NCBI GenBank assembly: GCA_023511455.1
Contig: JAIMBJ010000003.1
Span: 1-64,000, forward strand
Source of the DNA: Bacillota bacterium
GTDB lineage: Bacteria; Armatimonadota; HRBIN16
Direction: 5' to 3'
Length of the DNA: 64,000 bases
This document shows positions 6,162-8,795 of the stretch, in pieces. Both the position numbers and the translations under genes were made by a program. Position 1 is the stretch's first letter. Each line of letters starts with the position of its first letter. A model generated the notes under the pieces. The model saw only the letters and a list, made by a program, of their open reading frames with translations. It searched no databases and was not told the origin of the DNA.

Positions 6162-6638
6162 ATGGAACAGCAAGTCACACGCCGTCAGTGGCTGGCATTT
6201 CTGGTGAAAGCATTGGGAACTGTTTTGGCATTCGCGTATGGCATTCCCGTGCTGGCGATGGTGATTGTTCCTGCCTTTCGCAAACAAAAGTCGCCATGGA
6301 TTAAGGTTGGCGAAATCAAAGAGTTTCCTGCAGGCGAACCCAAAGCGGTGACCCTGAGCTATCAGCGACGGGATGGCTGGGTTATCCGCACCGTTCGCAG
6401 CACAGTGTATGTGGTAAACGGCACAGATGGCTCGCTCAAGGTGCTTTCCAATATCTGTACTCACGCCAGCTGCGCGGTGCGCTGGGAAGCAAGTAAGAGC
6501 GCCTTCTACTGCCCGTGCCACGTCGCGTATTTCGACGCGGATGGTAAGGTGATACAGGGTCCGCCCCCACGCCCTCTGGTGCAGTACCCGTACAAGGTGG
6601 AAGGTGGCTCGCTGTATGTGCGCCTGGATAACGTATAG
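6162..6638 (+). CDS. Rieske [2Fe-2S] iron-sulfur protein of a cytochrome b complex
   Basis: Electron-transfer subunit of a bc1/b6f-type quinol oxidoreductase, anchored in the inner membrane with its cluster on the outer face. The 158-residue protein has a basic N-terminus with RRQW, one hydrophobic anchor (about residues 13-40), and the two cluster-binding boxes CTHASC (near residue 102) and CPCH (near residue 119), each supplying one Cys and one His, plus a Cys pair that can form the stabilising disulfide. The PPPRPL turn after the second box is the usual proline loop. Start at 6162 is supported by a GAGGGA site. It sits 24 bases upstream of the cytochrome b gene, clearly as one operon. Confidence 0.92.
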   Translation: MEQQVTRRQWLAFLVKALGTVLAFAYGIPVLAMVIVPAFRKQKSPWIKVGEIKEFPAGEPKAVTLSYQRRDGWVIRTVRSTVYVVNGTDGSLKVLSNICTHASCAVRWEASKSAFYCPCHVAYFDADGKVIQGPPPRPLVQYPYKVEGGSLYVRLDNV

Positions 6639-6662: not shown

Positions 6663-8795
6663 ATGTTGCGCAAGCTGCTTGACTGGCTGGAGCGGGAGAC
6701 CGGCGTTATCAGCGCCTGGGGGCGTTTCTGGGCGCAGCCTCTGCCCCAAGGGGTAGGCTGGTGGCACATCTTCGGGGCGTTGACGCTGATAACACTGGTC
6801 ATACTGTTCCTCACTGGCGGCGCGCTGATGTTCTACTATAGTCCTACCCCAGACCAGGCCTACGCTTCGGTGCAATATATCGAACATTATTTGCCTGCCG
6901 GACAGTTCATCCGCGCCCTGCACTACTGGGCAGCACGGCTTATCGTGCTGCTGGTGATCATCCATATCGTCCGGGTGTTTCTGTGGGGAGCCTACAAGCG
7001 TCCCCGCCAGATGATATGGGTTAGCGGAGTGTTGCTGCTGTTAGTGGTCATTGGCTTTGGATTAACCGGCTATGCGCTGCCGTGGGACCAAAAGGCGTAT
7101 TGGGGCACGGTGGTGCGTCTGAAGATTGCCGAGGGCATCCCACTGATTGGCCCGTCCGTGGCTGCCTTTCTGCGTGGCGGCGACACGGTGGGCGCGGTCA
7201 CCCTGATGCGTTTCTTTGTGTTGCACGTGTTTGTGCTGCCTGCGCTGGTCTTCCTGCTGACTGCATGGCATGTGATACAGGTGCGCCGTCTGGGGGTAAC
7301 GCCACCGGGTGTGCAGGTTACTGAGGAAGCCAGTGTGCCGCACACGCAAATGCTATACCCCGACCACACCGCTCGTATTGCCGTGGGAGCCCTCATCCTC
7401 TCGGTGTTGCTCATCGGGCTATCGTTGCGGTTCCCTGCGCCGCTCGAGCCGCGTGCGAATCCCTTAGACACGGCATACAAGCCACATCCCGATTTTTATG
7501 TGCTATGGATGCACGAGCTGGTCAACCTCTTCCCGCCTCATTTAGAGTTCGTGGGCTCGTTTGTGTTGCCGACCATCCTGCTGCTGTTGCTGCTTGTGGT
7601 GCCTTTTGTGGAGCGCAATCCCGAGCGTCAACCGAGGAAGCGACTGAAGGCACTGAGTGCAGGTACTTTGGTACTGCTGGCGATCGTCGCGCTTAACGTG
7701 AAGGGGATGGAAGCCCTGCCGCAGCCAGAGCGGCTGTCCCCTCTGGAGCAGCGCGGGCAGCAGATTTTTGTGGAGCTGAAGTGCTACTCCTGTCACGGCA
7801 TCAACGGCGGCGGCGGGCCCGTAGGGCCCGACCTGGGTCTGGGAGGCAAACGCGACCCGGAGATGGTGCGTGCCCTGCTGCGCAACCCGTCCGCCCATAA
7901 CGCCCATACTATCATGCCTGCCTACCAGCTGCCCAGGGAACAGGAAGATGCGCTGGTGGCATATATCGTCAGCATCGGCCCAAACTCCAAAATGCCGCCC
8001 ATTCCGCCGACGGAGCCCGAGAAACCTGCTTCGCACTTCGAGGAGAACTGGTTCGTGAACCACAAGTTCGAGGTGCGCAAAGACCCCGGCAGCTGTAGCG
8101 ACTGTCATAAGCCGTTCTTCTGTCAGGCATGCCATCAGAACCGCCGCCCCAGCTCACACGATGCCCAGTGGCTGAAGTTCCACTTTGGCAACGCCGCCGA
8201 GCGACCGGAGATGTGCGCCACCTGTCACTCACCGGACTACTGTGAGACCTGCCACAAGGTCATGCGCCACGATACCCAGTGGTTGCGACAGCATGGGGCG
8301 AAGTTGAACGAGCTGGGCGACAAAATGCGTTGGTCGGGAGAGACCATGAGGCAGCTGTGCAGTCACTGCCACACGCCGCAGTCGTGCCAGAACTGTCACG
8401 GCGTACCGATGCCACATCCCGAAGGCTGGGACGAGAAGCACGCGCAGGTCGGGCATCAGAACCCGGCGCTGTGCCAGCGGTGCCACAACTTCCAGTCCGA
8501 CACCTGCCAGACCTGCCACCAGATGCGCCCCTCCTCCCACACGGAGGACTTCCGCAAGGAGCATCCCCGCCGCATCACCGATAGTGGCGCGAGCTGTCAG
8601 GTGTGTCACGGGCGCAACGCCTGCATGGACTGCCACAAGGTGCCCATGCCGCATCCGCCAGATTTTGGCGAGTCGCACGCTAAACTGGGGCAACAGCGGG
8701 GCTGGAAAGGTTACACTGGAGTGAAGAAGCTGCAGGCAGCGCAGTGCGCTACCTGCCATGATGTCAAATACTGTAATCAGTGCCATCAACCGTAG
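6663..8795 (+). CDS. Cytochrome b6/subunit IV/cytochrome c fusion with a 12-heme C-terminal tail
   Basis: A 710-residue fusion. Residues about 1-215 are cytochrome b6-like: two His pairs spaced 14 residues apart (HYWAARL...IIH and LHVFV...AWH) bind the two b hemes, and GYALPWDQ matches the b6 signature. Residues about 235-355 resemble subunit IV, with further membrane helices. A mono-heme cytochrome c domain follows (CYSCH at residue 374, with MPAYQLP supplying a likely axial Met). From residue 478 to 708 come twelve more CxxCH motifs as six couples, mostly CxxCHx4CxxCH, so 13 c-type sites in total. A GGAGG site precedes the ATG. With the Rieske protein it forms a complex that would oxidise menaquinol and pass electrons through a heme wire to periplasmic acceptors; the acceptor is unknown. 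Confidence 0.92.
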   Translation: MLRKLLDWLERETGVISAWGRFWAQPLPQGVGWWHIFGALTLITLVILFLTGGALMFYYSPTPDQAYASVQYIEHYLPAGQFIRALHYWAARLIVLLVIIHIVRVFLWGAYKRPRQMIWVSGVLLLLVVIGFGLTGYALPWDQKAYWGTVVRLKIAEGIPLIGPSVAAFLRGGDTVGAVTLMRFFVLHVFVLPALVFLLTAWHVIQVRRLGVTPPGVQVTEEASVPHTQMLYPDHTARIAVGALILSVLLIGLSLRFPAPLEPRANPLDTAYKPHPDFYVLWMHELVNLFPPHLEFVGSFVLPTILLLLLLVVPFVERNPERQPRKRLKALSAGTLVLLAIVALNVKGMEALPQPERLSPLEQRGQQIFVELKCYSCHGINGGGGPVGPDLGLGGKRDPEMVRALLRNPSAHNAHTIMPAYQLPREQEDALVAYIVSIGPNSKMPPIPPTEPEKPASHFEENWFVNHKFEVRKDPGSCSDCHKPFFCQACHQNRRPSSHDAQWLKFHFGNAAERPEMCATCHSPDYCETCHKVMRHDTQWLRQHGAKLNELGDKMRWSGETMRQLCSHCHTPQSCQNCHGVPMPHPEGWDEKHAQVGHQNPALCQRCHNFQSDTCQTCHQMRPSSHTEDFRKEHPRRITDSGASCQVCHGRNACMDCHKVPMPHPPDFGESHAKLGQQRGWKGYTGVKKLQAAQCATCHDVKYCNQCHQP

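Follow-up and report, generated by a model that had tools for sequence, protein, structure and literature searches.

An Armatimonadota cytochrome b6-subunit IV-cytochrome c fusion with a couplet-modular multiheme tail, a candidate bc complex with a built-in heme wire

What kind of respiratory complex is encoded by a gene that joins a whole cytochrome b to a long array of c-type hemes, and where would its electrons go? This question is raised by one gene (P0001; positions 6663-8795, + strand) in a 64,000-nucleotide stretch of contig JAIMBJ010000003.1 (the window) from the HRBIN16 lineage of the hot-spring phylum Armatimonadota. The open frame runs through 710 residues without a stop and encodes, in this order, cytochrome b6, subunit IV, a mono-heme cytochrome c and a 12-heme tail. 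It holds 13 CxxCH motifs in all, one at C374 and twelve at residues 478-708 in six couplets. A first-pass annotation of the window had already proposed that a whole cytochrome b part, a mono-heme cytochrome c and six CxxCH couplets are combined in this single chain, and Pfam searches, the CxxCH count, AlphaFold2 and Foldseek all agree with it.

The cytochrome b6 part (residues 1-215; 6663-7307, + strand) has four transmembrane helices and matches Cytochrome_B (PF00033; residues 25-210, 4e-46). It aligns without gaps to cytochrome b6 of PDB entry 2zt9 (E 1e-53) and retains the b-heme histidines: H87/H101 and H188/H203 correspond to the b6 ligands, and in the homologue alignments H101, H188, and H203 are invariant and H87 is at least 90% conserved. 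The subunit IV part (residues ~230-351; 7350-7715, + strand) has three transmembrane helices, as seen in the AlphaFold2 model and the alignment, and its match to Cytochrom_B_C (PF00032; residues 265-351, 7e-4) lies slightly below the curated cut-off. The Qo motif at residues 276-279 (7488-7499) reads PDFY in the window and in the close genus, and PEWY in more distant homologues. A mono-heme class I cytochrome c domain follows (residues 356-445; 7728-7997, + strand; Cytochrom_C, PF00034, residues 363-437, E 5e-9), with its CxxCH at residue 374 and an axial Met418. C374, C377, H378, and M418 are identical in 17/17 full fusions in the alignment, and this heme is predicted to be His/Met-coordinated and to serve as the c-type acceptor for the Rieske protein. 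AlphaFold2 modelled most of residues 1-445 with a pLDDT of ~90 and seven long membrane helices, and Foldseek matched this model to solved cytochrome b of bc1 complexes. Given the known topology of b6 and subunit IV, the seven predicted helices imply that the chain ends in the periplasm, with every c heme on that side of the membrane.

Directly upstream of the fusion lies a gene (6162-6638, + strand) for a Rieske [2Fe-2S] protein of 158 residues (PF00355, E 7e-15) with the motif CTHASC...CPCH and a twin-arginine-like N-terminus, and a Rieske gene is likewise found upstream in most homologous loci. The hallmarks of a Rieske/cytochrome b complex are all present, namely two b-heme histidine pairs, an operon-encoded Rieske protein, a Qo motif of the PEWY type and a c-type acceptor. 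The product of 6663-8795 is predicted to be a member of the Rieske/cytochrome b (bc) complexes with quinol:acceptor activity and a Q-cycle. We also considered cytochrome b6f proper, in which heme c_n is bound covalently to Cys35 of b6. The fusion is not a b6f because it has no cysteine at this position (I36 in the alignment with 2zt9); it is also a single chain with a class I cytochrome c, whereas b6f has split b6 and subunit IV and cytochrome f.

The multiheme tail (residues 446-710; 7998-8792, + strand) is built from six modules, each of which contains a [P/S/R]H, a second histidine ~8 residues later, a short spacer and a couplet that is typically CxxCH-x4-CxxCH. All on the + strand, the couplets and their distal histidines are couplet 1 (C478, C487; 8094-8135) with H458 and H467, couplet 2 (C518, C527; 8214-8255) with H499 and H507, couplet 3 (C566, C575; 8358-8399) with H536 and H544, couplet 4 (C604, C615; 8472-8519) with H585 and H593, couplet 5 (C645, C654; 8595-8636) with H626 and H634, and couplet 6 (C695, C704; 8745-8786) with H664 and H672. 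Since each of the six modules has two distal histidines, the twelve hemes face exactly twelve regularly spaced candidate ligands. All 12 heme histidines and all 12 distal histidines are identical in 17 full-length homologues wherever the module is present, and modules one and two hardly vary within the phylum in the alignment. Bis-histidine coordination is predicted throughout the tail. Shuffled tails contained a mean of 0.19 and a maximum of 3 CxxCH (2000 trials), so the twelve observed motifs do not reflect chance. Pfam recognized the tail as generic Cytochrome_C7. None of the NCBIfam families, TIGR03508 (MtrA/DmsE decahemes) included, matches any of 17 tails, and a tail profile search of PDB chains gave no match at E 0.01; no sequence relationship to cytochrome nanowires of the OmcS/OmcE/OmcZ type was found. 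AlphaFold2 modelled the tail with a pLDDT of ~50, both within the whole chain and on its own.

A chain of this kind could arise from a false assembly join, and the couplets could be missing from close homologues; both had been named as outcomes that would overturn the first-pass annotation. In comparisons with four sister sequences, the whole gene had a dN/dS of 0.065-0.070, and the tail taken by itself one of 0.05-0.065. With values of ~0.065 in every domain, purifying selection acts equally on core and tail. Because of this uniform selection and because the full fusion recurs in independently assembled genomes, an assembly or gene-join artefact is excluded. The couplets are kept under the same strong selection, and their number varies within the genus. 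All genomes of the same genus with a match carry the fusion (8/8), and the two without a match are only 77-80% complete.

An architecture search across genomes, also proposed at the outset, found the full fusion in 23 of 291 Armatimonadota genomes, representing 10 families. In a tree of the core, 17/17 sampled full fusions lie on one side of a branch with support of 100/99, which places the full fusions in one clade. When 84,980 species genomes were scanned for the pattern, no full fusion was detected outside Armatimonadota save in one record labelled Bacillota (L034), whose core falls inside the Armatimonadota clade and which is listed in another genome collection as a genome of the same phylum. 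The couplet tail is missing from the next-best relatives, which are either b-IV-c fusions or split genes and come from Nitrospirota, FCPU426, Acidobacteriota, Chloroflexota, and others. One genome (G062) has a second fusion copy (L036:5216-7891) with a frameshift in its tail, which leaves 3 CxxCH in frame and 15 in another; this is either a sequencing error or a decaying copy.

The CxxCH count of the full fusions is 13, 15, 17, 19 or 21, in every case one more than an even number. The tail has 14 hemes in most genus members, 16 in the sister family and 12 in the window and in G006 (L023), and it evidently grows and shrinks by whole couplets over a range of 12-20 hemes. Couplet 3 of the window combines the first half of one couplet with the second half of the next, at a place where most sister species have an extra module. 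Such a hybrid is as expected from recombination between repeats. The window and G006 have lost one couplet module, and a CbcL-like gene that lies downstream in six sister species is also absent from both. Gain and loss by couplets provides a natural experiment on how heme wires evolve.

The initial claim that the Rieske protein is the only other subunit of the operon holds for the window, where the next gene downstream is on the opposite strand, but fails for most of the genus, where a third gene follows. In most sister species this gene encodes P0002, a CbcL-like 11-heme protein with a b561/FdhI-type C-terminal domain, which follows the fusion in six sister species and at L027 of a related family. 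No CbcL-like partner was found in the window's own genome. In other families the fusion stands among multiheme genes. Consecutive genes on the same strand of L036 encode a decaheme of the GSU2203/DmsE type, a barrel-like protein, a lipoprotein, the Rieske protein and the fusion. The order in L142 is a decaheme-porin fusion of 975 residues, ResB, 6-, 8-, and 28-heme proteins, Rieske and fusion; in L143 it is an NrfH-like 13-heme protein, Rieske, fusion and a DmsE-like nonaheme; and in L144 a regulator, a 7-heme protein, a CbcL-like protein, Rieske, a 19-heme fusion and CcmF. The lipoprotein of L036 (3210-4514), encoded between the barrel and Rieske genes, combines an ethylbenzene-dehydrogenase heme-b-type domain with a class I heme domain. 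In the 975-residue protein of L142 (13854-16778, - strand; G224), an MtrA/GSU2203-like decaheme is apparently fused to a porin-like barrel (GSU2204-like, Porin_4). This chain might be an outer-membrane conduit in one piece, and open frames of similar size occur in G016, G218, G030, and G221.

We read the respiratory gene content of the window's genome, which is 99% complete, from searches and sequence stretches. The fusion is the one bc-type complex found in it. A cluster on a different contig (C4:33.1-38.5 kb, equal to L127:9140-14538, G000 contig 4) encodes an MtrA-like decaheme (8 CxxCH and 2 CX4CH), a barrel-like protein of 565 residues ending in F and two octahemes with lipobox-like signals, and looks like a porin-cytochrome conduit. 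A search for the NapC/CymA family (PF03264) gave no match in this genome or in the fusion, with a positive E. coli control. The operon for ACIII (pentaheme ActA, Fe-S/Mo-like ActB, NrfD) directly adjoins the COX genes for a heme-copper oxidase. ACIII is the usual quinol oxidase partner of an adjacent heme-copper oxidase, and the pair probably forms a separate oxygen branch. A NorB-type reductase is present as well. Across the phylum, an MtrA/DmsE-like decaheme occurs in 21/23 fusion genomes compared with 77/268 others (Fisher 3e-9, ignoring kinship), and a CbcL-like protein in 16/23 compared with 24/268 (Fisher 1e-10, again ignoring kinship). As these counts ignore shared ancestry, they may only mark multiheme-rich lifestyles.

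The reading that we favor, and regard as fairly probable, is that a Q-cycle complex delivers electrons to the tail, from where they reach periplasmic reductases and, via a conduit, acceptors outside the cell, while ACIII and COX serve oxygen. Two gene products, the Rieske protein and the fusion, would make up a Rieske/cytochrome b complex of the cytoplasmic membrane. Menaquinol, the presumed quinol, would be oxidised at the Qo site, with one electron passing through the two b hemes in a Q-cycle and the other moving from the Rieske cluster to the His/Met heme c (C374) and on to the twelve bis-His hemes on the periplasmic side of the same chain, which may stack into a continuous path. The tail would act both as a built-in wire and as a docking arm from which other multiheme proteins take up electrons, with periplasmic reductases and, through a decaheme-barrel-lipoprotein conduit, targets outside the cell as likely acceptors. 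The complex would take over the role of CymA, CbcL or a separate multiheme subunit from within a proton-motive complex, during anaerobic or night-time respiration, leaving oxygen to ACIII and the heme-copper oxidase. Bis-His hemes often have low potentials, and transfer from the Rieske protein and the His/Met heme into the tail would thus be uphill unless the tail is tuned up.

An outward multiheme route is supported by the conduit in the genome, the lack of a NapC/CymA protein, the separate ACIII-COX branch and, in a relative, conduit genes next to Rieske and fusion. The first-pass annotation had read the tail as a wire to distant acceptors and the complex as a possible exporter. The one-chain fusion, the conserved couplets with their own distal histidines, the conduit-type cluster, the decaheme co-occurrence and the L036 neighbors bear this out in part; the electron path, its direction and its end point are presumed. 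More tentatively, we suggest that a Q-cycle complex hard-wired in one polypeptide to a couplet-modular heme wire, and encoded in some lineages with an outer-membrane conduit, lets export run through a bc complex and not through non-pumping quinol dehydrogenases, a view that may well hold but that we would not call probable. HRBIN16 Armatimonadota are described in the literature as facultative anaerobes with multiheme cytochromes (PMC9671151), and HRBIN16-class organisms as having expression that peaks at night and multiheme cytochromes of unknown function embedded in the membrane (PMC11788075). The window is assigned to this group by its closeness to the HRbin16 record.

Electrons might instead remain in the periplasm, with the tail replacing NrfH/CymA and feeding soluble NrfA-like and octaheme nitrite or tetrathionate reductases, not the exterior. 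Among the proteins encoded by the genome, one is indeed NrfA-like (PF02335, 4e-71), another is of the octaheme tetrathionate reductase type (TIGR04315, 1e-175; L128:1798-4022, G000 contig 37), and none belongs to the NapC/NrfH family. An octaheme nitrite reductase candidate has also been reported from an organism of the HRBIN16 class (PMC11788075). However, the octaheme reductase has its own cytochrome b neighbor, the fusion adjoins conduit-type genes in relatives, and the fusion family is strongly associated with MtrA/DmsE-like decahemes, which makes a purely periplasmic hub unlikely. The cytochrome b next to the octaheme gene is thiosulfate-reductase-like, and the two would constitute a second quinol-linked multiheme route.

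The complex could also work in reverse, with extracellular Fe(II), minerals or partner cells feeding electrons through the conduit into quinone reduction. MtrA-like conduits also run inwards (MtoA/PioA), iron oxidisers operate their bc complexes in the reverse direction (PMC5566968), and PMC9671151 reports Cyc2 or MtoA-like genes from Armatimonadota of HRBIN16 and UBA5829. The latter source and PMC11788075 nevertheless describe HRBIN16 members as carbohydrate-degrading heterotrophs and facultative anaerobes, and we consider electron uptake distinctly improbable. It is very unlikely that the fusion is an ordinary aerobic complex III whose tail only supplies the heme-copper oxidase. Such a role would fit the COX operon with its c-type CoxB and the fusion being the sole bc-type complex found, but the COX genes directly adjoin a full ACIII operon, a nearby oxidase needs no twelve bis-His hemes, and relatives place the fusion with multiheme genes. 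That the tail merely stores electrons over short interruptions of acceptor supply, such as day/night shifts, without distant conduction is in keeping with many hemes on a possibly flexible arm and with the mats with daily oxygen swings inhabited by the published organisms (PMC11788075), but it seems barely credible given that modules one and two are almost absolutely conserved in the phylum, which points to defined contacts, and that conduit genes are linked to the fusion.

Multiheme proteins that accompany Rieske/cytochrome b complexes as separate partners are on record for Geobacter (PMC2825233), for Nitrospina, Kuenenia, and Methylomirabilis (PMC3578206, PMC12954380) and for Methanoperedens (PMC4683180). 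Fusion of cytochrome b to a c with one or two hemes is, according to PMC12954380, widespread in Gram-positives and also occurs in Kuenenia. Multiheme partners and b-c fusion are thus both known, and the new step is the placement of the wire in the same chain. Geobacter GSU2930-2937 (PMC2825233) likewise combines Rieske and cytochrome b with multiheme c in an electron-exporting host, with a proposed quinol oxidation site, but its c proteins (2, 10, 12, and 5 hemes) are all separate genes, whereas the fusion unites core, mono-heme c and 12-20 hemes. Kuenenia Kuste3096-3097, Kuste4569-4574, and Kustd1480-1485 (PMC12954380) and the octaheme operon of Nitrospina/Methylomirabilis (PMC3578206) share the b6 plus subunit-IV-like core and have cytochrome b fused to a diheme c, or a hexa- or octaheme c replacing cytochrome f. 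In these systems the multiheme c stands as a subunit of its own, and where c is fused to cytochrome b it binds just two hemes. The Kuenenia complexes also have NAD(P) oxidoreductase subunits and heme c_n, both of which the fusion complex lacks. The Methanoperedens cluster (PMC4683180) pairs Rieske/cytochrome b with two pentahemes for proposed electron transfer to an external acceptor but is archaeal and made of separate subunits.

Geobacter CbcL and the CbcL-like P0002 resemble the fusion in joining a quinone-active di-heme b membrane domain to multiheme c in one chain. They differ in having a b561/FdhI-type b domain, neither Rieske nor Q-cycle, and an unrelated, N-terminal heme domain; the fusion matches PF00033/PF00032 and not PF01292. 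The b-IV-c fusions of Nitrospirota, FCPU426, Acidobacteriota, and others are 35-40% identical in the core, with the same order and Rieske upstream, but stop after one or two class I heme domains and have no bis-His couplet tail. In Chloroflexota, subunit IV is also extended by many c hemes, but b6 is a separate gene and the extension consists of seven tandem mono-heme class I domains, not couplets with distal histidine pairs. We found no description of the full fusion in the open-licence papers searched, nor in the portions read of the HRBIN16 Armatimonadota papers that note multiheme cytochromes (PMC9671151, PMC11788075).

Well-studied electron exporters leave the quinone pool via CymA, CbcL or ImcH. 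If the favored reading is true, a bc complex with a built-in wire would be an exit route that conserves energy at the quinone-pool step. Because a wire in the same chain fixes stoichiometry and path genetically, whether a Q-cycle complex directly feeds a multiheme network can be tested on two genes.

Repeats like those of the tail also occur apart from the fusion. The 28-heme P0004 and the 21-heme P0005, whose genes adjoin fusion operons, contain repeats 34-35% identical to the fused tail; the NapC-type head is clear in P0004, and P0005 matches such a head only weakly. At these loci (L032:5389-7401 and L028:953-2509), one wire appears to be mounted on different heads.
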